Of a stretch of DNA of 64,000 nt, positions 43,298 through 58,070 are shown in pieces (position 1 is the first letter of the stretch; every line of letters starts with the position of its first letter). The DNA lies in the NCBI RefSeq assembly GCF_015221995.1, contig NZ_JADFFM010000001.1, forward strand, positions 2,914,001 through 2,978,000, written 5' to 3'. The translations under genes were made by a program, and so were the position numbers. The notes under the pieces are model-generated. The model had not been told where the DNA came from and ran no database searches. It saw only the letters and a list, made by a program, of their open reading frames with translations. Source of the stretch: Mucilaginibacter boryungensis. GTDB taxonomy: Bacteria; Bacteroidota; Bacteroidia; Sphingobacteriales; Sphingobacteriaceae.

Positions 43298-43861
43298 ATG
43301 AAAAAGATCAGTTTAATATTAGCCATGGCTGGAATTATTTGGATAGTTCAGCCGGCTCGTGCTCAAAGCAACGACACAACCAAAAACAAAATCGAACTTA
43401 AAAAGAAAATTAAAACAGGGGTTCATGGCCGCCAGGTTACTAAAATTAAAATGGAAGGCAAAGGCACGCCAGGCAGCATAAGCGATGCGACTTCAAGCGC
43501 AGTATCGGGCAAACCGGTTACGCATGTAACCGTAACACCACCGCCGCCACCAGCACCTACACCAGCACCAGAACCGGTAGCCACGCCGCCTGCTGACCCT
43601 AAAGTAATTGTAGTTACCCCACCAAAACCGGAAAAACCTGCTGAAACTACAACCACTGTAACTACCACAACTGAATCAAAGCCAGCTGTAGTTGCTGCTA
43701 AGAGTACAACAACTACTCACAGGACAACAGCAGCCCGGACAGTGCATAGGACCACACCAGTTAGGCGTACAACCGTCTACAAAAAACCGGCTACTGCACC
43801 TACCATAAAAACCACTACAACTACTACCATTAAAAAAACTCCGGCTCCAGATGGTAATTAA
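43298..43861 (+). CDS. Secreted Thr/Pro-rich low-complexity protein
   Basis: The 187-residue protein has a signal peptide (MKKISLILAMAGIIWIVQPARAQ), a short Lys-rich segment (IELKKKIKTGVHGRQVTKIK), a Pro-rich stretch (TPPPPPAPTPAPEP) and a C-terminal half of Thr runs separated by Lys/Arg/Val. No enzyme motif is visible. Such regions are usually extended linkers or cell-wall/envelope spacers, and Thr clusters might be glycosylated or phosphorylated. It is convergent with the kinase/PBP operon across a strong terminator. Function unknown. Confidence 0.7.
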   Translation: MKKISLILAMAGIIWIVQPARAQSNDTTKNKIELKKKIKTGVHGRQVTKIKMEGKGTPGSISDATSSAVSGKPVTHVTVTPPPPPAPTPAPEPVATPPADPKVIVVTPPKPEKPAETTTTVTTTTESKPAVVAAKSTTTTHRTTAARTVHRTTPVRRTTVYKKPATAPTIKTTTTTTIKKTPAPDGN

Positions 43862-43901: not shown

Positions 43902-43940
43902 AAAAGAGGTCCTATAGTTGAAACTATAGGACCTCTTTTT
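43902..43940. terminator. Strong bidirectional terminator
   Basis: An 18-bp perfect inverted repeat (43902-43919 with 43922-43939, core GAGGTCCTATAGTT) begins with an A-run and ends with a T-run, so it can terminate transcription from both sides. It lies exactly between two convergent genes. Confidence 0.9.
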
Positions 43941-43976: not shown

Positions 43977-45281
43977 TTAAAAAATTCCAAGGAACTTTTT
44001 CCGCCGGTGTTTCTTCTTAGTTTCTGCCACTGGTTTGGCTTTTATTCTATTTGCTTTTTTTATACTATCAATAATACGGGCCTCAATTTCAGCGGTGTGC
44101 CTGGATGGCGGCAAATATGGACGCAACATATATGGCTTATAAGCGGCTGCGGTAGTGCGGGCCGAAACGTAAACTGTTTTTTGAGAAAGCAACCCGTAAA
44201 GGGTTGTACCAATAAGGATAATAATTAATACTATCGCGCCAATAATTACATTTTTTGAAACGTTTATGGTGGTTTTATGCAAAATAGCGGCAGCCTCCTG
44301 CTGCTGCAACAATTGCGTTTGCAGCATTTCATTTTCGGTTTTTAATACTACTATATTGTTATCGGTATTGCCTGCAGAAGTACTGTTTTGAATTATTGTA
44401 TTTTGCAGTTCCATGCCATTGTTAAACCGGTTGGCGGGTAATTTTTCCAGGCATTTATAAACAATATTCAACAGCCAGCCGGGTACCTGCATTTCATGCT
44501 GGCGCTGTTCATCTGTCCAGCTTTCCGGCAGATTTTGCCTTCTAAGTTCCAGCAGGTCCGGTACGGGTGCCTCCATATGGGCAATCATTACGGTATTGCG
44601 TGCTGTTTCTCCGTTATCATGCAACGGAAATGGTACGCGCCCTGTAAGCAATTCATAAAGTACAACACCGTAGCTGTAAATATCTGTTTGAAACAGCATT
44701 TGGCCCTCGTTTTGTTCGGGTGCCATAAACTCGATGGCCCCGGCATGGCGCATGCTGCTGCGCCGCTCTTCATCCGACATAACGGATAACCCAAAATCCA
44801 ATAACACGTAATTACCCGTATGGATATTGAACTTTACATTGTTGCTTTTAATATCGCCATGCTTAATCCCTACTTTATGGCAATGTGCTAAAGCGCTGGC
44901 TAACTGATCGGCTAACTTAATCACCTCCTTTATCGTAAATACCCTATCGTGCGGCTCGGCAAGCAGTTCGGCAAGATCGGGCCCCTCAATATACTCCATT
45001 TCAATAAATGGCAGCGATCCGCTTTCGGTGATGCCCGAACTTAGTATCTTCACCACATTGGGATTGGGCACCTCATTTACTTTTTTTAACTTTTCAACCT
45101 CGTTTAAAAAGTTTCGATAGTTCTTATCATCGGTATCTTCTGTAAAAATTGGTGTTGGCAAAAGCTTTACCGCGCTTAATATGGGGCCCATCCTGCGGCC
45201 TTTATATACAGAGCCCTGACCACCGGTGCGTAGCGCCCCCATGTTTTCAAGCCCCTCCATTATGGTAAATACTTTGCTCAT
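43977..45281 (-). CDS. Membrane Ser/Thr protein kinase (copy 1, basic tail)
   Basis: The 434-residue protein has an N-terminal kinase domain (residues ~10-295): glycine loop RTGGQGSVYKG, Lys39 in SAVKLL, catalytic loop HGDIKSNN (Asp143, Asn148) and DFG at 162-164. The usual Arg before the catalytic Asp is Gly, making it a non-RD kinase. A short coiled segment (about 310-335) and one membrane helix (344-365) follow, then an outside tail that ends very basic (KKKHRRKKFLGIF). No PASTA repeats are present. It is the last gene of the operon, 5 bp after the FHA gene, and is a close paralogue of the kinase at 52824-54167. It probably phosphorylates proteins read by the FHA partners. Confidence 0.92.
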   Translation of the reverse strand: MSKVFTIMEGLENMGALRTGGQGSVYKGRRMGPILSAVKLLPTPIFTEDTDDKNYRNFLNEVEKLKKVNEVPNPNVVKILSSGITESGSLPFIEMEYIEGPDLAELLAEPHDRVFTIKEVIKLADQLASALAHCHKVGIKHGDIKSNNVKFNIHTGNYVLLDFGLSVMSDEERRSSMRHAGAIEFMAPEQNEGQMLFQTDIYSYGVVLYELLTGRVPFPLHDNGETARNTVMIAHMEAPVPDLLELRRQNLPESWTDEQRQHEMQVPGWLLNIVYKCLEKLPANRFNNGMELQNTIIQNSTSAGNTDNNIVVLKTENEMLQTQLLQQQEAAAILHKTTINVSKNVIIGAIVLIIILIGTTLYGLLSQKTVYVSARTTAAAYKPYMLRPYLPPSRHTAEIEARIIDSIKKANRIKAKPVAETKKKHRRKKFLGIF

Positions 45282-45286
45282 CAGGG

Positions 45287-46069
45287 TTATTTTACCTTTT
45301 TATAGCTAAATTCTATCACTGCTGTCTCGCCAAGGATCACCTGGTCCCCCTCTTCAAGCTGATGCCCAATTTGGCTTGAATGCAGCTTAATCAGCGTACC
45401 TGTAGCGGACGAACGTACTTTAATCTTATTGCCCGGAGGAATGCCGCCTTCATCCGCAAAAAGCATAAAACAGCCCTTCTCATTATTCCATTCCAGGTGG
45501 GCATGCTGCCTGCTGATATATTTGTTGGCTTCATTATCAACATCACCGGGAAAAGAGATATGGTTAGTCCTGAAAAAGCCACCCTCAACCTGGGCCTTTT
45601 TTTCGCGGCCTATGTTTAGTTTGCCATCCTGGGATGTAATATGGTATTGGGGCTTTTCTGCTACGCCGTTTAATACGCGTATATATGCATCGCCTGTTTT
45701 TTGAATGGTATGATCCTTTGTACGGATAAATATAGCAGCGTTTATTTCATTAAATTTGACTGCTTCAGGCGGGAACTCATCGTTGAAATTGATCTCCAAT
45801 GCCCAATTATCCGGAAGGCCTAAGTCAAAGTCGTCCGCAATACGTTGTATTTCTTCCTTAAACTTGTCTGGTTCATCCTGATAGACTGCAGATTCGTACA
45901 TGTGCTTATCTGTAGCGGGTGGCGCAATAAACAAATTGATCCCCTTAATATTGCGGCCCTCGCCGCCTTCGGCTTTTTGCAGCTCTTCTTTTACAGCGCG
46001 CAGCAAAGAATCCCTCACGCCCTTTACATCTGTTGGATTATTATTGCTTTGACCAAATATATTGAACAT
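45287..46069 (-). CDS. FHA-domain phosphothreonine-binding protein
   Basis: The 260-residue cytoplasmic protein has an N-terminal region of unknown fold (about residues 1-120; a helix RDSLLRAVKEELQKAEG, then LALEINFND-like strands) and a C-terminal FHA domain (about 145-258) with the key binding residues: LNIGREK (Gly-Arg) and YISRQHAHLEW (Ser-x-x-His). FHA domains bind phosphothreonine, so it likely docks on the kinase, its substrate or the SEDS-PBP protein. The N-terminal plus FHA layout recalls actinobacterial FhaA, though I could not confirm homology. A GTG at 46072 precedes ATG 46069, which was chosen. Neighbour gaps are 15 and 5 bp. Confidence 0.87.
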   Translation of the reverse strand: MFNIFGQSNNNPTDVKGVRDSLLRAVKEELQKAEGGEGRNIKGINLFIAPPATDKHMYESAVYQDEPDKFKEEIQRIADDFDLGLPDNWALEINFNDEFPPEAVKFNEINAAIFIRTKDHTIQKTGDAYIRVLNGVAEKPQYHITSQDGKLNIGREKKAQVEGGFFRTNHISFPGDVDNEANKYISRQHAHLEWNNEKGCFMLFADEGGIPPGNKIKVRSSATGTLIKLHSSQIGHQLEEGDQVILGETAVIEFSYKKVK

Positions 46070-46084
46070 CACTTTTTATGTTAA

Positions 46085-49000
46085 TTAGTTTTCGGTTGTA
46101 GTGTCTGGTGCTGTCATTTGTTCGGGTTCGGTTGACATTTTTGATTTGGAATTGGGGTCCGCTTGTTCTTTTTCAGGAACAATACTTTTGATATACCCTT
46201 TTTTAATCAGGAACGGAATAACATGTTTACCTGCCAAATGCACAGCATCGGCCGACCCCTTTGTTGATTCGATACGGATACACACCACGATGTTGCCGGG
46301 GCTTTTAACCATTGGCGCAAAAAACACGTACCAACCATCGTTAATACTTTCTTTTTTCCAGATCCGCTCGGGAGTACCGGTTTTACCCGCAACGCTCAGT
46401 CCTAATATGGGTACCTTTGGCGCGCTCTGCTCTATCATATACTGCGTCAGCAATGAAGTATACTGCGGGTCATTAGCCAGCTTTATACTGCCTTTAACGG
46501 GCTGTACAGTATCACTAACCTTCAATACAAAACGGTTAGCAACTAATTCGCCATTATTAGCCACGCCCGATACCAGCCTGGCCACAGCAGCCGGTGTAGC
46601 TATTAACTCACCCTGGCCCCAGGCCATACCTGAGATCCCTTTGGCACGAGTACGCCGGATGTTGTTAGGATCGTACCGCGGTTTGGTATTAAACTCTGTT
46701 TTTCGCCAAAGTTCCAGCCATTTCTCTTCCTGTCCGGCATTGTCTGGTTGTTTCCCATAAAAATAGCCGCCAACGCCATGTAGAAACATCCCGGTTTTTA
46801 AATAAAGGGCAGCCATATCTTCCTGCAAATGCTCCTGATTAGCTAACTTAATAAAGTACACATTGTTTGATTTGGCTATAGCCCTCTCTAATGTGATCAC
46901 GCCAGTCTCATCCGGCTCTATCCCTTTAGTGCGGATACGTTCCCACATCGCTACATTGAATTTTTTATTTGCCGCTTCCAAACCAAGTTTATTAAACGCG
47001 GCCATGGCAGTTAATACTTTAGCGGTCGAGCCGGGCTGGGTGGCGTATGTGAAGCCCAGGTCGCTGGTAGTCATCCATTGCGAAAGCTTATTCTGTTCGT
47101 TCACCGGCATGGTCAGTTGGTCCCAGTTATGCACCGGCGGCAGCGGATAAACCGCTGATGCCAGCACATCGCCGGTGTTGGGCATCATAATTACTACCGA
47201 TACCCGGTTATCATATAATGAAGTATCGGTAGCTATAGACTTTTGGATACTGGTTTGCAAATTGGCATCTACGGTTAACTGCACATCGCGGTTACGCTTT
47301 TTAAAGGCTTCAACCTCGCTGCTGTTAATCCCGGCTATCAATAGCGGCGCCAGCGCGCTGTAATCCTTTTTGCTTACCGACATTTCTTTCACCCCGCGCG
47401 GCAAAAAACGGTCTTCCTGGTAGCGGCTGGCGTGGGTGTTATAATTGGCTATAGGCATTTTAAACCCGCGTAACTCGGCCGCGTGCTCATATTCGGCAAA
47501 GTAACCATTGGTGCTGCCATTAAATACCCCGGTGTTAACGTCGCCTACCCAAAAGAACATCTGCTCCTCAAACGGATAGTAACGCGTTACACGCTTGTGC
47601 ATGGCCGAATCAAGGTTATAATTACTAATACCCGATGTATCCAACAGCTTCCGCTGTTGCTGTATCAACTGCGGATTGCTGGTAGCCAAAACTCGTCCTT
47701 CCCTATCATATAAAGTGCCCGCCTGAAGTTTATTCATTAAAATAGCAATGCGCGGATTGTAGCTAAACATCCTGCCCCCGCTACGGTCGGCCACCAGCGA
47801 TGGTTTTACTATCCATTTGGCATTATTAAACAAATAGCGCGATACATTAACCGTAAGCAGCAGTATACCAATACAAGCCATTATTAACGCTGGCACCAGG
47901 TTTCTGTCCTGCTGTTTAGTAATAAAACTCATTTGCACAGGTGTGCCTTTTACTTTCGATGCTGACAATAGGAAACCAGCGGCTAAAAAATTGACAACCA
48001 ACGATGAACCGCCATAACTTTGAAATGGCAGCGATACGCCCGATAATGGTAAAGCACCCGTTGAACCGCCTGCTATTAGCAAAAACTGCACAAACGTACA
48101 TATGCCAATACCGGCGCACAAGTAGAATAAAAACGGCGTACCCGTTTGCCGGCCTATAATAATAGCCCGGTGAAGGTACAGCAGGAATATCAGAAAGATG
48201 CATATAATACCCGTCCAACCAAATTCCTCGCCAATTGATGGCAGTATCATATCGGTATGTGCCTCTGGGATGGTTTTGGCAAAGCCTTCGCCAATACCCT
48301 GGCCGGTAATGCCGCCACTTGCCATTGCCCAAAGGCCATTAGCTACCTGATCACCACCGTAAACTTCATTATCCCAGGCGTTTTGCCAAATGGCTTTCCT
48401 ATCAACTAAACGTTGTACAGGGCCGGGTATTAGTTTATCCAGATGCGGGATTTTATCAATGGTTAAAAACCCTGCGATAATGATCAAAGCCATAATAGCC
48501 GATTCGCTAAGCTGCTTACGTTTCAGCAACGTTACTGCAACCAACATGGCTACAGTTAGCAAGGCCGAAAGCCATACGTTTTTAAATATCCAGGTAACCA
48601 GTACATAAAAAATTACCGATGCGGCCATAAACATAAAATCACCACGCGCGAAGGAGAACAGGATAATAAATGTAAAGCAGATAACGATAGCCGGCCCTAA
48701 GTCGCCCAGCATCAGGAACAGAAAAAGGGCAATGCCTATGGCTATTACTGCAAATGAAAAAAACGAGAAACGTTTTTTCCAACTGGCATATTCGCTAATA
48801 AATTTTTCGTTGGTAGCAAAAAAGCCCGCCAGGAAAACGATCACTAAATATTTTACAATTTCGCTGGGCTGAAAACCAAACAGGTTTACTTTAACGCCAC
48901 TACCTTCCGGCCCTGATCCAAAACGAATAGTTAAGGCCAGCAATCCGATAGCTATAATGATCCATGGCCAGCCATTGGCCGCTTTGCGATTATTTTTAAA

Positions 49001-50230
49001 TACCAATAACCTGTACAGATTGGAATCGACCGTAAACCTGCGTAAATTAAATAGCAGCATTAACATCATCGCAAAAAAGCCCATACCCAGGTACATTAAC
49101 GAATCCTTAACGAGGAACCTGTCGCGTAATGGATCCTGCAGGCTTAATAAGGTTAGAAAGGACAAACCTGTAAGCACCATGATAAACGGTAGTATCAACT
49201 GATCGGCCGTACTAAATTTCCAGCTGAGCAATAAATGGGCGAGTGCAAAGCATCCAAAAAAGCAGCCTGCAACCACCATGAACCAAAAGTTAAATTCGGC
49301 TGGTGTACGGATCATAAAGGCTTTTTCTTTTTTCAGGATACTGAAATCACGGGTTGATAATAACCTGATGGTATGGGGCGAACGTGAGAAGTTGAATATC
49401 TCATCATTATCCAGGTTTTCGGTACCTGAAGATCGCCCGAATTGATACCCGGGCTGTAACGGTAAAACTTCGAATGCCTTACCGGCAGGGAGATTTTTAA
49501 ACATATAATTTCCCCTATCGTCGGTGCGCGCAAAGGCAGTTAAGGTTTGCAGATGAGTTTTTTTTTGCTCATCTAATATATACTCCTTTTTAAAACCCGG
49601 CCCCTGCTCAATCTTTTTATTTAACTGGTCGGCTTCCTCGTCATTATAAGTACTGTCCTGGGGCAATATCATTTGCAGCCGGACCAGCACACCGGCAACA
49701 GGCAGTTTCTTTTCAAGCACCGTCCCGCTTATGGCCTTACCATCCATGCCCACATCGGTAACAGCCGGCAAAACGGGTGGTTTAGCTTTTTCCTGGACGA
49801 AACGTAAGGAATCGTCACCTGTATAACCAAGTAACGACCGCGAAACCAGCACACGCTGCTGAAACGACTTACCCCCTTTGGCCATTGCTTCATCAGCATC
49901 AACATAAAATTTCTTTTTATTGATATCACCAATGTTTTCAAACCTGTCCCCCGCCTTTACACGATCTCCGATCACTTTTTCTATCAGGTCGATATCGCGT
50001 TTATCTTCAAAATAATATCCTTTTTCAAGCAGCGTGCGGATGTTTCTTGCCGGGTTTTTCGCATTCAGGTTCACCATCGAGCCATCCTGCATGCGCCTAT
50101 CCACATCGGTAAAGTTTTTTTGTTCGATATAAAATAGCCGGACAAACAACAGCCCTAATACTGCTGCAATTACCAACAGGAACACGCGTTCTTTTTTCCT
50201 GCTAACAGACGCTGGTATTTCTTGTTCCAT
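46085..50230 (-). CDS. SEDS (RodA/FtsW) glycosyltransferase fused to penicillin-binding transpeptidase
   Basis: This 1381-residue protein joins two normally separate cell-wall enzymes. A first membrane helix (15-36) leads into an extracytoplasmic region (about 37-310) with a carboxypeptidase-regulatory-like beta fold near 165-290 (TDDRGNYMFKNLPAGKAFEV). Next comes a multi-helix SEDS polymerase (about 313-775) with FGFQPSEIVKYL (Glu457), MLGDLGPAIVI, EAHTDMILPSIGEEFGWTG and GVSLPFQSYGGSS. A further helix near 785-805 acts as the PBP anchor, followed by a class B-like PBP whose transpeptidase motifs are complete: S1068-T-A-K1071, S1121-N-N and K1283-T-G. It should polymerise and cross-link glycan in one chain. 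Its ATG overlaps the PP2C stop (TAATG), implying translational coupling. Confidence 0.93.
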   Translation of the reverse strand: MEQEIPASVSRKKERVFLLVIAAVLGLLFVRLFYIEQKNFTDVDRRMQDGSMVNLNAKNPARNIRTLLEKGYYFEDKRDIDLIEKVIGDRVKAGDRFENIGDINKKKFYVDADEAMAKGGKSFQQRVLVSRSLLGYTGDDSLRFVQEKAKPPVLPAVTDVGMDGKAISGTVLEKKLPVAGVLVRLQMILPQDSTYNDEEADQLNKKIEQGPGFKKEYILDEQKKTHLQTLTAFARTDDRGNYMFKNLPAGKAFEVLPLQPGYQFGRSSGTENLDNDEIFNFSRSPHTIRLLSTRDFSILKKEKAFMIRTPAEFNFWFMVVAGCFFGCFALAHLLLSWKFSTADQLILPFIMVLTGLSFLTLLSLQDPLRDRFLVKDSLMYLGMGFFAMMLMLLFNLRRFTVDSNLYRLLVFKNNRKAANGWPWIIIAIGLLALTIRFGSGPEGSGVKVNLFGFQPSEIVKYLVIVFLAGFFATNEKFISEYASWKKRFSFFSFAVIAIGIALFLFLMLGDLGPAIVICFTFIILFSFARGDFMFMAASVIFYVLVTWIFKNVWLSALLTVAMLVAVTLLKRKQLSESAIMALIIIAGFLTIDKIPHLDKLIPGPVQRLVDRKAIWQNAWDNEVYGGDQVANGLWAMASGGITGQGIGEGFAKTIPEAHTDMILPSIGEEFGWTGIICIFLIFLLYLHRAIIIGRQTGTPFLFYLCAGIGICTFVQFLLIAGGSTGALPLSGVSLPFQSYGGSSLVVNFLAAGFLLSASKVKGTPVQMSFITKQQDRNLVPALIMACIGILLLTVNVSRYLFNNAKWIVKPSLVADRSGGRMFSYNPRIAILMNKLQAGTLYDREGRVLATSNPQLIQQQRKLLDTSGISNYNLDSAMHKRVTRYYPFEEQMFFWVGDVNTGVFNGSTNGYFAEYEHAAELRGFKMPIANYNTHASRYQEDRFLPRGVKEMSVSKKDYSALAPLLIAGINSSEVEAFKKRNRDVQLTVDANLQTSIQKSIATDTSLYDNRVSVVIMMPNTGDVLASAVYPLPPVHNWDQLTMPVNEQNKLSQWMTTSDLGFTYATQPGSTAKVLTAMAAFNKLGLEAANKKFNVAMWERIRTKGIEPDETGVITLERAIAKSNNVYFIKLANQEHLQEDMAALYLKTGMFLHGVGGYFYGKQPDNAGQEEKWLELWRKTEFNTKPRYDPNNIRRTRAKGISGMAWGQGELIATPAAVARLVSGVANNGELVANRFVLKVSDTVQPVKGSIKLANDPQYTSLLTQYMIEQSAPKVPILGLSVAGKTGTPERIWKKESINDGWYVFFAPMVKSPGNIVVCIRIESTKGSADAVHLAGKHVIPFLIKKGYIKSIVPEKEQADPNSKSKMSTEPEQMTAPDTTTEN

Positions 50231-51669
50231 TATTTTTGTTTGTGGGTTACCGGTATGGAATCAACTTTAAATATTTGCGCCGGGATACTTCCACTGGTGT
50301 ATTTACCTTTAATAGTAAATAAATTTTTAATGGCGTTGGTACAGTTGATGAACCTTATATTTTTTAATAGCAGCGCATTGTTGTAGGCCGTAACACCTGT
50401 TTGAAAATTACTGACAGCAAGGCTATCCAGCATAACCAATTTACATTTAGGCGAAAGGGTAAATGCCGCACCTTTATAGCCACTATCACTTTGTAGCCGG
50501 ATATCGCCTTTGGTTTTAATAAACAAAGTGTCTTTATTTATCTTAATGGGCTGACTAATAATGATAGGCGCAGTAAAAGCAGTATCGGAAAGGAGTAATA
50601 AGTTGCCTTTCAAGCCATCGATAGCATTTTGCAGCTTAACTTCTAATTTACTTAAAGGCCTCCTGATTGGCTGTGGGGCGGGTTTCGTCGCTGGTTCTGA
50701 ATCGGCTTTACGCTGGCTGAATTGCCAAATAGTTGTTGACAAAAACACTAAAGCAAGGAGAGCGAATATCACTGCAACCCAATTACTTCGTTTAGCAGGA
50801 ACCACATGTTGCTGCCCGGTTGTTGAAACAGGTGTTTTAATAATCATTGGCTCAGCTATATCGGGCCGTTCATTTTTTTTTTGATTACCTGTCGGCATAG
50901 TCGCGTTATGTGTTGTTGTTTGCTTGCTGTTCTTTACAAGGACAACAGTTATATTATCTTTTCCGCCGTTATTATTTGCTGCTGCTATCAATTCACGGCA
51001 TTTATCTTTTAAGCCGTTGCTATTGTTAAGTATATTACTCATCTCGGATTTACTAACCATATCGGTTAATCCATCGCTACAAAGCAAAAGCATGTCGCCG
51101 GGTAAAAAAGGTGACTGTCCTGTTTCGATATATTCCGTGTCGCGGCCTAAATTAGCTTCAAAACCAAGCGCCTTATTAATTTCATTGCGCTTTGGATGTG
51201 TCATAGCAGCTTTTTCATCCAAGCGGCCAGAATCTTCTAAAAAACCAACAAACGATTGATCGCGGGAGATTTTTACCAGTGACTGATCGCGCAACAGATA
51301 TAGACGGGTGTCGCCCACATGCACGTAATAAAATTGATTTTGTTCAACATCTACCAGCGCCAGGGTGGCTACACAGGCCATACTTTCGTGTTCTTTTACC
51401 TGCTTTTTTTCGTCTAATATTTTTTGGTTGGCCAGGTTAAAACAGTCTATCATCATCGGGATCACCTCGCCCGATGGTTTGCCAAGCCTTTGCAATATAG
51501 ATTCGCGGGCCAAAGCGGCCGCAATTTCTCCGCCTGAATAGCCACCCACACCATCAATAACGCAGGCAATAATAAATTTGCCGTTAGCACTTTGCTGCGC
51601 GATAAAGGTATCCTCGTTATTTTTTCGCTCGTTACCGATATCGGTTAAGCCATAAAACTGATCAGTCAT
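50230..51669 (-). CDS. PP2C-type Ser/Thr phosphatase with extracytoplasmic beta-helix-like domain
   Basis: The 479-residue protein has a cytoplasmic PP2C domain (1-245) with all metal motifs: RKNNEDTF (Asp20), IDGVGG (Asp39, Gly40), HVGDTRLY, CSDGLTD (Asp198) and GGKDNITVV (Asp237). A linker and one membrane helix (296-316) follow, then about 160 residues outside that look like a short right-handed beta-helix (IRLQSDSGYKGAAFTLSPKC, LAVSNFQTGVTAYNNALLLK). By analogy with PstP it reverses the neighbouring kinases. The outside domain may sense the envelope, a job usually given to kinase PASTA domains. Translation is coupled to the SEDS-PBP gene and overlaps the small ORF upstream. Confidence 0.92.
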   Translation of the reverse strand: MTDQFYGLTDIGNERKNNEDTFIAQQSANGKFIIACVIDGVGGYSGGEIAAALARESILQRLGKPSGEVIPMMIDCFNLANQKILDEKKQVKEHESMACVATLALVDVEQNQFYYVHVGDTRLYLLRDQSLVKISRDQSFVGFLEDSGRLDEKAAMTHPKRNEINKALGFEANLGRDTEYIETGQSPFLPGDMLLLCSDGLTDMVSKSEMSNILNNSNGLKDKCRELIAAANNNGGKDNITVVLVKNSKQTTTHNATMPTGNQKKNERPDIAEPMIIKTPVSTTGQQHVVPAKRSNWVAVIFALLALVFLSTTIWQFSQRKADSEPATKPAPQPIRRPLSKLEVKLQNAIDGLKGNLLLLSDTAFTAPIIISQPIKINKDTLFIKTKGDIRLQSDSGYKGAAFTLSPKCKLVMLDSLAVSNFQTGVTAYNNALLLKNIRFINCTNAIKNLFTIKGKYTSGSIPAQIFKVDSIPVTHKQK

Positions 51670-51760
51670 TGGTTTTGCGCGAGTTTTTAATATCGTAAAA
51701 ATGAGTTATTAATAACAATACAACTATAACCAGTAACCCGGCGGACAATACTTGCGACAT
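51662..51760 (-). CDS. 32-residue single-pass membrane peptide
   Basis: Between the FHA-like gene (stop at 51765) and the PP2C gene (start 51669) lies an ATG-to-TGA frame of 32 codons. It encodes one hydrophobic helix (VLSAGLLVIVVLLLITHFY) with a charged C-terminal tail (DIKNSRKTND). It starts 4 bp after the upstream stop and overlaps the PP2C start by 8 bp, the packing expected for a real operon gene. Likely a small membrane subunit or regulator of the complex; function unknown. The alternative is a chance frame that merely fills a gap. Confidence 0.6.
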   Translation of the reverse strand: MSQVLSAGLLVIVVLLLITHFYDIKNSRKTND

Positions 51761-51764
51761 AGGC

Positions 51765-52715
51765 TTATGATTTAAAAATATTGACCCCTATAATCCCGTT
51801 TAGTAATATTTTTGAATTTACAGGCAATTCGACCCACGATGGTGAGTTAACATCGCTTCTTTGTACCTCATTTTCGTTTAGTATGGTACGTTCACCAAAT
51901 GATGCCAGATAAAATTTCCCGTCAGATTTATTATACCTGATATGCAAATGCGGGGTGTTTACCCATTCAGTCGGGATTTTAAAGATATTACTATCTTCAC
52001 GTTCCTCTTCATCCCCTGATACAATGATCTCGTCATCCTGCATTAAATATTCCACCTTTTTACCCGCAAATTGTTTTTCGGGCAGTATGGTTTCAAACCG
52101 TGCAAAACTCTTCTTCCTGTTATCTGCCGGGGCGTCCTCATCATAATCCAGGTCATCAATATAAGGCAGCTCGTAATAGCCTTCGCTATAATAATTAAAC
52201 CCCTTCAATACGTCCTGACTTACATCAAACGTTTGGGCTATGCCTGTTTGCCGCGGAATAAACGTAACCCTTAAATTTTCCTCCTTTTTGGTACTGCCAG
52301 GTAACAATTTACCTATAAAGCCAATATCGCCCCGCTGATAATCGGGATGAGAAACTATACGGAAAACCCATTTAGAGCTTGATGGCACTACAGTTTTACC
52401 CGCCGCACGGTACTGCTTTAGCTGTTCATAAAATTTCTTAACCGTTTCATTTACAATCAGCCCGAAAATACCCTGCTTATTATTCATAAACTCCTGGTAA
52501 TCATCGGGGTTAAAGCTAATAATGTATTCGTGATAAAAAACGATACGTTCGGCGAAAGAAAGCTGACGGATGGAATCGTTAAATTTATCAATTACATAGT
52601 TGTAAACATCATCCGGCGTAAGTGTTTGCTGCTTTTTTGACTTTGAGGTATTTTCACTGGTTAAAAACCAGTCCTGTATCCCCATACGTTGCCAGATAGA
52701 AGTTTTAGGTTCCAT
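51765..52715 (-). CDS. Putative degenerate FHA-like operon protein
   Basis: The 316-residue protein has no signal peptide or membrane helix. Residues ~30-105 are helical (DDVYNYVIDKFNDSIRQLSF), the middle is mixed and acidic (DDLDYDEDAPAD, SGDEEERED), and the last ~70 residues match the tail of an FHA fold (SDGKFYLASFGERTILNENE, WVELPVNSKILLNGIIGVNI). The phosphothreonine-binding Gly-Arg and Ser-x-x-His pairs are not visible, so it may bind without phosphate or be a scaffold. It lies 108 bp downstream of the first kinase gene and is followed after 4 bp by the small membrane ORF. The FHA-like call is by pattern only. Confidence 0.62.
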   Translation of the reverse strand: MEPKTSIWQRMGIQDWFLTSENTSKSKKQQTLTPDDVYNYVIDKFNDSIRQLSFAERIVFYHEYIISFNPDDYQEFMNNKQGIFGLIVNETVKKFYEQLKQYRAAGKTVVPSSSKWVFRIVSHPDYQRGDIGFIGKLLPGSTKKEENLRVTFIPRQTGIAQTFDVSQDVLKGFNYYSEGYYELPYIDDLDYDEDAPADNRKKSFARFETILPEKQFAGKKVEYLMQDDEIIVSGDEEEREDSNIFKIPTEWVNTPHLHIRYNKSDGKFYLASFGERTILNENEVQRSDVNSPSWVELPVNSKILLNGIIGVNIFKS

Positions 52716-52823
52716 GTATATTTAATCTCGGGTTAATAGTGTTTAAACATTGTAATTAACAGGTTCCCTGGACAGATGTTTGAACTATTCATTTTTATTA
52801 ATTAGTGGATACCGTTAAATCAT

Positions 52824-54167
52824 TCAATTATTATCAGGCTGTACTTCTGTACTATCAACCTCCGTGCTATCCGGCTCAGTTGAATTTTTACGCCTGTTTT
52901 TTTCAATATCAGCCTGAATCCCCGCCTTTACAACCGAATCCTGAAGCCGTTTTTTTTCGCGTTGGGCAACAGCATTATTATTTTGTGTGGCTATACTATC
53001 GGCAACCCGGGTTGAGTCGGCTTGCTGTTGTGTGGTCAATATTTCGTTTTGTTTTGGCGCCTTCTTATTATTAAACAACGCATAACCTGTAAACGCCATA
53101 AAACCAATCAATAAGATCATCAATCCCCAAAAAACAGGTTTAGATATCAGCATCATGTTGCTGTCAATCTCGTTATCAACATAGCCGGTATCAACAACCA
53201 CCTCTGCTTCCTGGTTCGTTACAGCTTCGGTAGTTTCTTCTGGTTCTTCCCAACGGATATCAGCAATGCTGTTTTCTATAATGGCATCATGCAATTCCAT
53301 ACCATTAGCGTAACGGTTATCGGGAGATTTTTCCAGGCATTTATAAACTAATTTCAGCAGCCATCCGGGTACCTTCATTTCATGGTCGCGTTGTTTTTTG
53401 GACCAACTGGCGGGGAGGTTTTGTTTGCGCAGTTTCATTAAATCGGGCACCGGCGATTCCATATGGGCTACCATTACGGTGTTGCGTGCAGTTTCTCCAT
53501 TATCTTTTAAAGGAAAGGGTACCGTGCCGGCCAATAGTTCATATAAAATAACGCCGTAACTGTATACATCTGTTTGAAACAGCATTTTTCCTTCATTCTG
53601 CTCGGGGGCCATAAATTCAATAGCGCCGGCATGGCGCATGCTGCTGCGGCGTTCCTCGTCGGACATGATAGACAGGCCAAAATCTAACAGCACGTAATTG
53701 CCTGAATGAATGTTGAACTTTACGTTATTGCTTTTAATATCCCCATGCTTAACGCCAACCCCATGGCAATGGGCCAGCGCGCAGGCTAACTGATCGGCCA
53801 GTTTAACCACATCTTTTAGGGCGAAGATCTTATCATGCGGCTCTGCCAGTAGTTCACCCAGGTCAGGCCCTTCAATAAATTCCATTTCTATAAACGGGAA
53901 CGAACCGCTTTCGGTAATACCCGAGTTAAGTATTTTAACTACATTGGGGTTGGGTACCTCGTTTACCTTTTTTAACTTCTCAACTTCATTCAAAAAGTTA
54001 CGGTAATTCTTATCATCGGTACTTTCGCTATATATAGGTGTGGGCAAAATTTTTACGGCGGTAATGATAGGCCCTATACGCCGCCCTTTGTATACAGAAC
54101 CCTGGCCGCCGGTGCGCAATGCACCCATATTTTCCAGGCCTTCTGTTATTGTAAATACTTTGCTCAT
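52824..54167 (-). CDS. Membrane Ser/Thr protein kinase (copy 2, acidic tail)
   Basis: The 447-residue protein is the first gene of the operon and a paralogue of the kinase at 43977-45281: the first 100 residues differ at only 11 positions by direct comparison, and similarity drops after about residue 290. It keeps RTGGQGSVYKG, the lysine of the AVK motif, HGDIKSNN and DFG, and is also non-RD. A longer acidic linker (EEPEETTEAVTNQEAEVVV) leads to a membrane helix (343-365) and a coiled, Gln/Asp-rich outside tail ending STEVDSTEVQPDNN. The acidic end contrasts with the basic tail of copy 1. No PASTA or sensor domain is present. Confidence 0.92.
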   Translation of the reverse strand: MSKVFTITEGLENMGALRTGGQGSVYKGRRIGPIITAVKILPTPIYSESTDDKNYRNFLNEVEKLKKVNEVPNPNVVKILNSGITESGSFPFIEMEFIEGPDLGELLAEPHDKIFALKDVVKLADQLACALAHCHGVGVKHGDIKSNNVKFNIHSGNYVLLDFGLSIMSDEERRSSMRHAGAIEFMAPEQNEGKMLFQTDVYSYGVILYELLAGTVPFPLKDNGETARNTVMVAHMESPVPDLMKLRKQNLPASWSKKQRDHEMKVPGWLLKLVYKCLEKSPDNRYANGMELHDAIIENSIADIRWEEPEETTEAVTNQEAEVVVDTGYVDNEIDSNMMLISKPVFWGLMILLIGFMAFTGYALFNNKKAPKQNEILTTQQQADSTRVADSIATQNNNAVAQREKKRLQDSVVKAGIQADIEKNRRKNSTEPDSTEVDSTEVQPDNN

Positions 54168-55671: not shown

Positions 55672-57804
55672 TTATTCCTGCCAAACTATTACATCGGCTG
55701 GTTTTAGCAATGGTGTCCCTATTAAAATTTTAGCTTTAGCTGATAACGGCACTGCATAGGGTTTTGGCGAATAGTTTACCCCTACCCAAAAGCCATCACG
55801 CCATTCCAGTATTACACCATCGGGTAAATTGCGTACCGGAATGCCCGCACGCTGATAAACTTTTTGCAACACGGCTTTTTCCAAACTGCCATCATCTGTA
55901 TCGGGCCCTACATAGGTTATTGTGCCCTTACCCAGTTTGCGCGACATTACTGCTGCCCTGCCTGCATAGTATTGGTTTGTATAGTTTGCCCAAACTTCGG
56001 TTCCCGCGTCAGGGGTTATAATATCGGCCCAGTTGTTCCATTTAAAGTTTTGATTATTCATTTTTATGGTACCAATTACAGTATCAGGCAACAGGTCATA
56101 AAAAGATATCTTGCCGCCTATCAGCTTGTAAATGGGTTCGGCAAACTTCATTTCCCATAGTTTAGCATTACGGTCTTTTTGCCCTGTACGGGTCGTCAAT
56201 ATCAGGTGGCCCCCATTTTCTACGTAGGTAGTCCAGCGGGCTACTAAATTGGCATCCAGTAACTGGTACGATGGCGCTATCATTACCGGATACTTAGAGA
56301 AATCTTTATCCTCGGTAATCACATCTACAGGCACGCCCAACTGTTTAAGGGCATTGTAATAATGCAGCATATGCTTTTCAAAGCTCCACTGGTTACTTTG
56401 GGGCTGGTTATCTTCTTCCCAACGGTTATCGGGGTTATAAAGCACGGCTGTTAAACGCGCCGCATGCTCTTTGGGCATCTGCGCATTGGGATTATATGAT
56501 TTTTTAAGGCTTTTTAGTTCATTGATCACTTTAATATATTCTAATCCGCTGGTACTTGGAGTAACACCATCAGGGCCAATAATACCGTAGTGATATTGTT
56601 CGCCGCCAATTAAAGGTTGTTTAAAGCGATAGTTACACACAAATTTATTGCCGCCGGCAAAGGCATGCCATATCCACATGCGCACCACACCGGGCATAGG
56701 CTGTGGGTTAAACTTGCCCCAATTAACCTGGCCTGGCTGCAATTCCATTACGCCCGTTGTTCCGTTAATAGACCGGAACAGATCGTTTGAAAAAGCAATG
56801 CTGGTTGATGACCCCATACGAAAGCCTTGCGGGCCAATGCCTTTGTCATATCCGGCAACCAGGTATTTTGTATAAGTGTTAAAATCCAGACTGGTAATTT
56901 TTGTGGGGTCGACAGGTGGTTCGCCCGGCATAAGGTTGGTGGTTATCCATTGCTCGGGTGCAATGTACTTGCGCAGTATTTTGTACTGCATAGCCAAAAA
57001 ATCGTTCACTTCGTCGTTGCTGAAACGTTTAAAATCTAACACCGCACTCGGGTTAGGCTGCGCTATTAATTCCTTACCGTTCGGGATGCGCACCTGATCA
57101 AAGTCACTATAGACAAGGCTCCAAAAAGCGGTCCCCCATGTTTTATTTAGGTTGGCTATAGTGCCATATTTTGCTTTTAGCCACTTGCGGAAACTTATTT
57201 GTGCTGCCGGGCTATAGTCATATTGGCCATAATGCGATGGTTCGTTATCCAATTGCCAGCCCCATATGCGTTTATCATTAGCAAAATGTTTAGCTACAGC
57301 TTCAACCATTTTGCTCACATATTGACGATAAACCGGACTTGACCATGATATTTGCTGCCGTGATCCATGCTGCATAGTGATACCCATATCGTTCACCATT
57401 AATATTTCCGGGTGCTTCTCGGCAAGCCAGGCCGGTGGTGTAGGGCTTGATGTGCACATAATGACTTTAATACCATTAGCCCTTGCCAAATCTACCGCTT
57501 CATCAATCCATTTAAAATCAAACTTACCTTCTTCGGGCTCAATAAACGCCCAGGCAAACTCGCCAAAATGGGTAAAATCGAATCCAACTTCGGCCATTTT
57601 TTTCAGGTCGCGCGCCCAATACTCATGTGGCCATTGCTCGGGATAGTAATATGACCCGATGGGCATCAGGTCGCTTTTATTAAAGAAGTTTTTTGTTTGT
57701 GCTTGTGAGCTATTTATTTCAAAAAGAAACAACGCTGCAAGTAGCAGGGCACATTTAAATATATTTCCGGCAGCGGAAAACAGGGCATAGTAATTTTTCT
57801 TCAT
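55672..57804 (-). CDS. GH42-family beta-galactosidase-like enzyme
   Basis: The 710-residue secreted protein has a signal peptide (ALLLAALFLFEINSSQAQ) and the GH42 layout: YYPEQWPHEYWARDLKKMAE at the start of the barrel, acid/base Glu in GWQLDNEPSHYGQYD, nucleophile Glu in GVMELQPGQVNWG, then a trimerisation-type domain (YPVMIAPSYQLLDANL, GGHLILTTRTG) and a small C-terminal beta domain. GH42 enzymes release beta-galactose; secreted Bacteroidota forms can act on plant or algal galactans. An upstream ATG at 57846 would give a poorer signal. It lies downstream of a SusC/SusD pair but past a terminator. Confidence 0.9.
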   Translation of the reverse strand: MKKNYYALFSAAGNIFKCALLLAALFLFEINSSQAQTKNFFNKSDLMPIGSYYYPEQWPHEYWARDLKKMAEVGFDFTHFGEFAWAFIEPEEGKFDFKWIDEAVDLARANGIKVIMCTSSPTPPAWLAEKHPEILMVNDMGITMQHGSRQQISWSSPVYRQYVSKMVEAVAKHFANDKRIWGWQLDNEPSHYGQYDYSPAAQISFRKWLKAKYGTIANLNKTWGTAFWSLVYSDFDQVRIPNGKELIAQPNPSAVLDFKRFSNDEVNDFLAMQYKILRKYIAPEQWITTNLMPGEPPVDPTKITSLDFNTYTKYLVAGYDKGIGPQGFRMGSSTSIAFSNDLFRSINGTTGVMELQPGQVNWGKFNPQPMPGVVRMWIWHAFAGGNKFVCNYRFKQPLIGGEQYHYGIIGPDGVTPSTSGLEYIKVINELKSLKKSYNPNAQMPKEHAARLTAVLYNPDNRWEEDNQPQSNQWSFEKHMLHYYNALKQLGVPVDVITEDKDFSKYPVMIAPSYQLLDANLVARWTTYVENGGHLILTTRTGQKDRNAKLWEMKFAEPIYKLIGGKISFYDLLPDTVIGTIKMNNQNFKWNNWADIITPDAGTEVWANYTNQYYAGRAAVMSRKLGKGTITYVGPDTDDGSLEKAVLQKVYQRAGIPVRNLPDGVILEWRDGFWVGVNYSPKPYAVPLSAKAKILIGTPLLKPADVIVWQE

Positions 57805-58070
57805 GGTTGATATTGAGGGTTTATTTTGGCAATTGCAAGTTAACATTACTTTTCAAATCTTACTAAATAGCGTGCGCTGAGAAATCAATTATTGCACTGT
57901 TGTTCACTAATTTAATGTCTCTCCCCGAACCAAATTGGCGTCACCTATACCCATAAAAAAACAGATCATCAAGCGCCTCTCCTCCTGAATATGGATAAGC
58001 ACCCGACGATCTGTATGTTTTTAATGCATTAATAAGCTACAATAACTTATAGCTTGTTAATTTACCCGGC
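57805..58070. other. 266-bp gap between susD and GH42
   Basis: This gap holds the terminator listed next and presumably a promoter for the GH42 gene, although no clean TAnnTTTG element was found. No small gene was seen. Confidence 0.45.
57954..58014 (-). terminator. Intrinsic terminator after susD (minus strand)
   Basis: On the minus strand ACAGATCGTC (58014-58005) pairs with GATGATCTGT (57970-57961), allowing one G-T pair, and is followed directly by seven T residues (57960-57954). The loop is long (34 nt) and may hold further pairing. It lies 57 bp after the susD stop. Confidence 0.68.

Follow-up and report, generated by a model that had tools for sequence, protein, structure and literature searches.

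A kinase, phosphatase and FHA operon around a fused SEDS-PBP protein in Mucilaginibacter: a probable diderm variant of an actinobacterial cell-wall control module

In Mucilaginibacter boryungensis, genes for two Ser/Thr kinases, a PP2C phosphatase and FHA-type proteins are packed around a gene whose single product joins a SEDS polymerase to a penicillin-binding protein (PBP) transpeptidase, which raises the question of whether a cell-wall control module familiar from Actinobacteria has a counterpart in diderm bacteria. The operon lies in a stretch of 64,000 nucleotides, hereafter the window (NCBI RefSeq assembly GCF_015221995.1, contig NZ_JADFFM010000001.1, positions 2,914,001 to 2,978,000), and coordinates below are those of the window. 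In our view, the operon is probably a diderm variant of the FhaA-FhaB-PstP-RodA-PbpA-PknA-PknB module that codes for an accessory peptidoglycan synthase controlled by Ser/Thr phosphorylation; both the activity of the fusion and its phospho-control are predictions from sequence. The operon comprises seven open reading frames (ORFs) on the minus strand, confirmed at 43977-54167, which from 54167 downwards are followed by an inverted repeat:

52824..54167, minus strand: Hanks Ser/Thr kinase A, 447 aa (Pfam PF00069, 1.9e-34; hydropathy, motifs)
51765..52715, minus strand: FhaA-like protein (FHL), 316 aa, with an N-terminal alpha/beta domain and a C-terminal FHA fold
51662..51760, minus strand: micropeptide, 32 aa, one transmembrane helix; 8-nt overlap with the PP2C start
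50230..51669, minus strand: PP2C phosphatase, 479 aa (PF13672, 1.3e-12; NF033484, 4.7e-61, under its cut-off)
46085..50230, minus strand: SEDS-PBP fusion, 1381 aa (PF01098, 4.6e-43, and PF00905, 3.8e-25, in one ORF)
45287..46072, minus strand: FHA protein, 261 aa (PF00498, 20.9 bits against a cut-off of 20.7)
43977..45281, minus strand: Hanks Ser/Thr kinase B, 434 aa (Pfam match, hydropathy)
43902..43939: inverted repeat just beyond kinase B, found by eye and not listed by the consensus scan

A preliminary description of this DNA had read the segment as two kinases, a phosphatase, an FHA protein, a degenerate FHA-like protein, a membrane peptide and a SEDS-PBP fusion, tightly packed with two overlaps and with both synthases in one chain. 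All seven ORFs stand together on one strand as described, and Pfam matches cover the kinases, the phosphatase, one weak FHA domain and, within a single ORF, both the SEDS and the transpeptidase parts. The intergenic gaps are, in order, 108, 4, -8, -1, 12 and 5 nt, loose only between kinase A and FHL. The same description took the operon for an extra wall synthesis system, and the host genome (4.88 Mb) bears this out: FtsW and FtsI lie at 772 and 766 kb of contig C1, and RodA adjoins PBP2 at 655-657 kb of contig C2, names that rest on scores, neighbours and the SEDS and PBP trees, with further transpeptidases at 471 and 234 kb of C2. Because these canonical sets lie elsewhere, the operon is an extra, third SEDS system, and it holds most of the kinase-PP2C-FHA apparatus of the host, namely two of three Hanks kinases, one of two PP2C_2 matches and, at E up to 1, the single FHA match of the genome. 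The third kinase (C2:1665456) adjoins the other PP2C_2 match (C2:1664165) in a separate pair at C2:1664165-1666082. Among nine other carriers searched for SEDS, five that are isolates or single-contig assemblies (G030, G269, G543, G544, G545) have two canonical SEDS genes and the fusion each; the four others, metagenome-assembled genomes (MAGs) of Acidobacteria, have one to three canonical SEDS copies, full or partial, and two of these MAGs (G541, G542) hold two different fusion genes apiece, SEDS and PBP sharing a frame in every case.

To what extent is this gene set conserved as a unit? We sampled 395 genomes of the phylum, 149 of the window genus (117 of them good) and 247 of Acidobacteriota. 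A scan of named species gave 526 confirmed stretches, of which the best 80 were kept; since long, fused hits are preferred by this selection, the number of unfused relatives may be too low. Annotation with profiles started from the window proteins covered 95 loci, among which L052, L086 and L108 are second copies, and 72 untruncated, de-duplicated fusion loci form the basis of the partner counts, L108 being dropped as an identical copy on the L102 contig. The fusion stands in one long frame in 15 of the 395 phylum genomes (10 aligned over most of the query, 5 more distant); 6 of the 247 Acidobacteriota genomes and 101 of the 149 genus genomes also carry it. FHL is present in 99 of these 149, and each of the two in 82 of the 117 good genomes. 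All FHL-bearing genus genomes carry the fusion, and the two fusion-only genomes (G457, G464) are 65% and 63% complete. Fusion and FHL share a contig, about 1.5-1.7 kb apart, in 97 of 99 genomes and fall on two contigs in G493 and G525 (680 and 600 contigs); in G420 the fusion is split in two frames.

Carriers in the named-species scan belong to Pedobacter, Mucilaginibacter, Spirosoma, Larkinella, Fibrella, Chitinophagaceae, one Flavobacterium, Rhodothermales (counted with Bacteroidota here, a phylum of their own at NCBI) and Acidobacteria. With STK denoting a Ser/Thr kinase, the commonest orders among the 95 loci are FHL-PP2C-STK-SEDS:PBP-FHA (23), FHL-PP2C-SEDS:PBP-FHA-STK (14) and FHL-PP2C-STK-STK-SEDS:PBP-FHA (13), and the window order, STK-FHL-PP2C-SEDS:PBP-FHA-STK, occurs in 8. 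The listed partner matches lie on the fusion strand throughout, except for one PP2C (L051). Across the 72 loci, FHA is found in 72, FHL in 69, PP2C in 66, a kinase in 66 and all four in 64; in L122 the sole FHA match is a partial ORF about 7.5 kb off at the locus end, so that an FHA gene is truly near the fusion in 71. The eight incomplete loci lack one to three partners: L082 and L122 (FHL, PP2C and STK), L097 (FHL), L046-L048 (PP2C and STK), L060 (PP2C) and L045 (STK). With the same profiles, none of the four partner families was found in any of 15 canonical FtsW or RodA loci of carrier genomes. Scattered genes, which would have refuted the preliminary reading, are not what 64 of the 72 loci show, and the set is mostly conserved as a unit, not assembled by chance.

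The unit probably also travels. A 137-kb plasmid of Spirosoma oryzicola (L137, NZ_CP089545.1, 10729-21285) bears FHL, a micropeptide ORF, PP2C, two kinases, the fusion and FHA, the fusion being annotated merely as 'FtsW/RodA/SpoVE family cell cycle protein'. Chitinophagaceae fusions occupy two places in the trees, L093 and L116 with Sphingobacteriaceae and L090 and L100 with the Spirosoma type, and the Flavobacterium fusion (L122) groups with Cytophagales. Transfer of the fusion between families appears likely. As a separate observation, three records labelled as plasmids resemble chromosomes or pieces of them: NZ_LT559118.1 (an 11.85-Mb Nonomuraea record) and NZ_LN868939.1 and NZ_LR134456.1 (Nocardia and Tsukamurella, with the rodA-pbpA operon). 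In Pedobacter panaciterrae O48, identical fusion genes (L102, L108) lie about 120 kb apart on one contig in opposite orientation, with FHL split in one copy, which would be a duplication or an assembly effect.

The fusion consists of a transmembrane helix, a periplasmic helical and transthyretin-like region (~40-305), a SEDS polymerase and a transpeptidase, and its catalytic residues are in place, with Asp660 in the SEDS part and S1068xxK, S1121xN and K1283TG in the transpeptidase. Across the 95 fusion ORFs, the SEDS catalytic Asp and the transpeptidase S and K are kept in every one and SxN in 94 (one gap); the K and G of KTG are found in 92 (three gaps) and its T in 91, with one S. A study of Escherichia coli RodA reports that D262A blocks polymerisation, so that the family needs this Asp (PMC6207328). 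We infer that the fusion would polymerise and cross-link lipid II. A model of residues 1-345 (mean pLDDT 87) has a transmembrane helix, a helical part, a beta-sandwich and the next transmembrane helix. Because a fold search with the periplasmic part gave only matches of low TM-score (pilins, dioxygenases) and 13 of 17 rows match CarboxypepD_reg at E up to 0.1 (3.3e-7 at best, 0.017 for the window), we would call this domain transthyretin-like and nothing more specific. A PDB search with the PBP half returned PBP2a entries among the best matches, MrdA and PbpA scoring nearly equally. The fusions most similar to that of the window among the named loci (84.5% and 80.5%) are both from Mucilaginibacter. 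Fusion has gone further in two cases, each from a single assembly: in Roseithermus (L049 7753-11916, and L052 from the same genome), PP2C, SEDS and PBP share one frame of 1387 aa, a case that needs a read check, and in an acidobacterial MAG (L070 7809-12092) the FHA protein follows SEDS-PBP in frame (1427 aa).

Is the likeness to the actinobacterial pknB-pstP-rodA-pbpA-fha locus, which the preliminary description had pointed out, one of ancestry? For the SEDS part it goes beyond resemblance. We built trees from 21 chosen loci out of the 95 together with the window, with 47 rows for SEDS (a tree without a true root) and 41 for PBP. In the SEDS tree, the 22 fusions form one clade, and a branch with 100/99 support sets the fusions, five actinobacterial RodA and one clostridial FHA-linked SEDS apart from the host RodA and FtsW; four of the five actinobacterial rows stand in the rodA-pbpA operon (L138, L184, L185, L186), and the Embleya row (L187) was not seen in it. 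Approximately unbiased (AU) tests reject a grouping of the fusion with canonical RodA (p 0.0026) and with FtsW (p 0.00033), and do not reject the fusion with actinobacteria but without the clostridial row (p 0.35). The SEDS tree and these tests indicate that the SEDS part of the fusion is kin to the RodA of the actinobacterial operon.

For FHL, the link to Actinobacteria runs through intermediates. In a structural model, residues ~200-316 fold as an FHA domain (8.1e-7 in Foldseek; Z scores as high as 14.3 in VIA), the VIA comparison having no row over the N-terminal domain and so bearing no evidence about it. Among 27 FHL rows, matches at E up to 1 were found to FHA in 17 (best 1e-13) and to FhaA_N in 11 (best 8.6e-6), and the N-terminal profile of FHL matched that of acidobacterial rows with 96.8% probability (E 2.3e-10; negative control 0.1%). 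FHL is most likely a diverged FhaA-type protein, connected by way of acidobacterial intermediates rather than proven in one step. It had been called degenerate, and in the window this is apt: the phosphothreonine pocket reads G, N, H in place of R, S, H. The loss follows lineage. R and S are intact in rows from Acidobacteria, Rhodothermia and the Spirosoma type; in nine other rows of the window type R is replaced by G in all nine and S by N in eight, with S kept in L093, and L044 has K and Q at the two positions. The 261-aa FHA protein has an intact pocket (R156, S187, H190), and R, S and H are present in 21 of 21 aligned rows. We also considered its N-terminus as a second FhaA_N domain and rejected this, profile support being nil (0.3-0.6%).

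The catalytic Asp is kept in all 114 operon kinases. Kinase A has its kinase domain at 18-287 with an HGD (non-RD) catalytic loop, a transmembrane helix at ~338-366 and a short outside tail, and kinase B has a transmembrane helix at ~337-368 and a basic outside tail; because the two are 83% identical over their first 302 residues, they would seem to have arisen by duplication. As the preliminary description had it, the kinases lack PASTA domains: none was found in 28 operon kinases scanned, the two of the window included, a sample that left out three of 29 listed kinases (L049, L050, L128) and the kinases of the remaining loci. The sole FHA match among these 28 probably belongs to L044 12615-14042, an assignment made by C-terminal sequence. 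The remark of the preliminary description that the phosphatase bears the outside domain likewise agrees with hydropathy, which places a transmembrane helix at ~292-318 and a domain of ~160 residues outside, behind a catalytic domain (~9-246) in which the metal-binding Asp is kept. Among 83 PP2C proteins, the catalytic domain is followed in 64 by 186-384 residues, room enough for a transmembrane helix and an outside domain like those of the window phosphatase; in 17 it is followed by 1-107, and two are the Roseithermus chain. The idea of an anti-phage system was rejected: in a PADLOC scan the fusion, FHA and FHL had no match, the kinases matched many kinase models (PD-T4-6, mad6 and others) and PP2C one weak model, so that the set as a whole was not recognised.

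The smallest gene of the operon proved to be widely kept. Between FHL and PP2C, 67 of 80 loci (65 of 78 minus two duplicates) have an ORF of 20-70 codons that includes a strongly hydrophobic stretch, as against 1.7% of mononucleotide shuffles of these gaps. No such ORF was found in the gap ahead of FHA in 88 loci, that gap being shorter (median 7 versus 64 nt). In 20 of 20 further genomes of the genus, a micropeptide-like ORF with an HF motif is present on the expected strand; HF directly follows the transmembrane helix in most Bacteroidota micropeptides, and acidobacterial copies differ. Single-base codon changes among 14 copies of equal length are synonymous in 69%, compared with 23% expected randomly, though the pairs are not independent. 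These comparisons indicate that the micropeptide is a conserved gene under purifying selection, homology across phyla being unproven for so short a peptide. We also tried to read it as a relic of the N-terminal transmembrane helix of FhaB, and rejected this: its alignment scores to two FhaB segments are unexceptional against 150 transmembrane segments, other segments equalling them in 41% for the window micropeptide and 8.7% in the best case (Roseithermus). The parallel with FhaB would thus be one of position only, between an FhaA-like protein and PP2C.

We propose the following mechanism. The SEDS half of the fusion would polymerise lipid II through Asp660, and the transpeptidase half would cross-link the product within the same chain. 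The kinases, with one transmembrane helix each and no PASTA sensors, would phosphorylate threonines on themselves and on their partners; the intact FHA protein would read phosphothreonine and recruit or switch the synthase, FHL may serve as a scaffold whose phosphothreonine reading was lost in the window lineage, and the membrane-bound PP2C would reset the system. The micropeptide may be an in-membrane subunit or regulator, and the sensing done elsewhere by PASTA kinases has probably passed to the domains that phosphatase and fusion have outside. As the occasion of action we favour stress over basal growth, because carriers retain the canonical systems and roughly one genus member in three is without the operon.

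Several results weigh against this proposal. Phospho-control may not be universal, because L046-L048 lack kinase and PP2C and L122 and L082 are near-lone fusions. Most of the 114 operon kinases are non-RD, with G ahead of the catalytic Asp in 71, R in 42 and N in one; activation-loop control may therefore differ, and regulation by some means other than phosphorylation of that loop is suggested. On the side of ancestry, the fusion falls far below the NCBIfam cut-offs for FtsW and RodA, and its PBP half forms a long-branched clade of its own, not tied to PbpA, PBP2 or FtsI. The FHL of the window has no Pfam match, neither to FhaA_N (PF12401) nor to FHA; FhaA_N exceeds its cut-off in only two of nine whole genomes searched (Nocardia, G541), and the direct profile match to four actinobacterial FhaA is weak (7.9% for Bacteroidota, 30.6% for Acidobacteria).

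These results leave room for other readings. It seems improbable that the kinases and phosphatase form a stand-alone signalling unit acting on cell-wide targets, as PstP and PknB do in mycobacteria, with the fusion just one co-regulated gene. The operon's large share of the host kinases, PP2C_2 and FHA matches fits such a unit, and in one report knockdown of the PstP operon altered phosphorylation globally in M. smegmatis (PMC6554272). However, loci without kinase and PP2C (L046-L048) still have FHA, FHL and the fusion together, kinases change place around this core, and in Roseithermus the phosphatase is fused to the synthase itself. We likewise give little credence to a convergent assembly in which common domains were combined twice. 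Such an origin would suit a PBP half without proven special kinship to PbpA, the trees here covering the SEDS and PBP parts alone; the SEDS tree and AU tests, the occurrence of FhaA_N together with FHA in acidobacterial FHL rows and the order FhaA-x-PP2C-SEDS-PBP common to both operons speak for shared descent instead.

Other alternatives concern the occasion on which the synthase would act. The fusion could be a back-up for stress or antibiotic exposure (compare PBP2a for transpeptidation), its kinases sensing wall damage. We hold this to be possible if rather doubtful, and it is compatible with the accessory synthase under phosphorylation control, for which it names the occasion. Its patchiness in the genus, its carriage on a plasmid, the canonical sets alongside and the PBP2a entries among the best PDB matches would fit, but MrdA and PbpA score almost equally and the PBP tree does not settle the kinship of this half. 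SEDS pairs dedicated to one life stage exist, and the presence of a third SEDS set next to those for growth hints at a particular time or site of action, so that a developmental synthase of cysts or resting cells, comparable to SpoVE-SpoVD in spores, comes to mind; we regard it as quite unlikely, and in the tree the SEDS part of the fusion lies apart from both SpoVE rows. A bolder form of our proposal, which we offer only tentatively, would make the operon a horizontally moving, self-contained third peptidoglycan machine of Gram-negatives, with polymerase and cross-linker in one chain, a phosphorylation switch instead of MreBCD or FtsZ, and the conserved membrane micropeptide of 27-35 aa as an activating subunit, as MreC or FtsN-type proteins are elsewhere.

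If the accessory synthase under phosphorylation control is real, Bacteroidota and Acidobacteriota gain a kinase-controlled wall synthase of the sort known from Actinobacteria and part of Firmicutes. The fusion would offer a natural, compact SEDS-PBP chain in which the coupling of polymerisation to cross-linking and its phospho-control are testable in one protein, and the micropeptide is a short, testable candidate for a SEDS regulator. Because the genus has species with and without the operon (101 of 149 with), its role is open to comparison and to deletion with the canonical growth machines untouched. The preliminary description did not foresee the spread to Rhodothermia, Acidobacteriota and a plasmid, the conservation of the micropeptide or the loss of the FHL pocket by lineage. 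New here are the micropeptide as a conserved, selected gene, the kinases without PASTA, the Spirosoma plasmid operon and the PP2C-synthase chain in one genome.

The inverted repeat at 43902-43939 is likely a bidirectional terminator towards a convergent ORF (43298-43861). In the consensus scan, promoter-like sites were at shuffle level (26 versus 24.7) and terminator-like sites near it (16 versus 12.8); a TAnnTTTG box lies 52 nt ahead of kinase A and is not counted as evidence. The neighbouring genes (DUF1015; gene 55672-57846) had no match in loci L036-L050, with flanks of about 5 kb.

How, then, does the operon compare with known systems? The closest known system is the actinobacterial operon, whose reference order is FhaA (DUF3662 and FHA)-FhaB-PP2C-RodA-PbpA-kinase-PASTA kinase in Actinomyces (L186); in Tsukamurella (L184) PP2C is missing from a partial table, and Nocardia (L138) was read by profiles, with FhaB not identified. 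Two papers describe the same fhaA-fhaB-pstP-rodA-pbpA-pknA-pknB cluster and tie it to wall growth and phospho-control (PMC6554272, PMC11898655). Both operons link FHA, PP2C, SEDS, class B PBP and Hanks kinase genes, with the same functions and the core order FhaA-small transmembrane-bearing gene-PP2C-SEDS-PBP; their SEDS parts group together, and FhaA_N connects them through relatives. They differ in that here SEDS and PBP are fused (one ORF in the 95 kept loci, a choice that favours fused ones), the kinases lack PASTA and are placed elsewhere, a micropeptide without FHA takes the FhaB position, there is an extra FHA gene, the host has its own RodA/PBP2, and the FHL pocket is lost in the window lineage. 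A clostridial FHA-FtsW/RodA-PBP cluster (Monoglobus, L188) is similar in that FHA adjoins SEDS and PBP and in its side of the SEDS tree, whereas its genes are separate and no PP2C or kinase appears in the incomplete gene table of that stretch. With RodA-PBP2 and FtsW-FtsI the fusion has the two enzyme families and their catalytic residues in common, but it is a single chain with an extra periplasmic domain and a separate tree position, and it coexists with both in the host. In the open PMC literature, which leaves aside subscription papers and preprints, we recognised no account of a natural SEDS-PBP fusion or of the operon outside Actinobacteria and Firmicutes. The nearest precedent for the chain itself is engineered: the E. 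coli study reports a RodA-(GGGS)3-PBP2 fusion to be active as a polymerase, both in vivo and in vitro (PMC6207328). That protein also has SEDS and then PBP in one polypeptide, but it was made by hand, without an N-terminal domain or kinases, whereas the operon fusion is natural and conserved. As far as searched, the operon is thus not categorically new but an undescribed diderm variant of the known actinobacterial control module.

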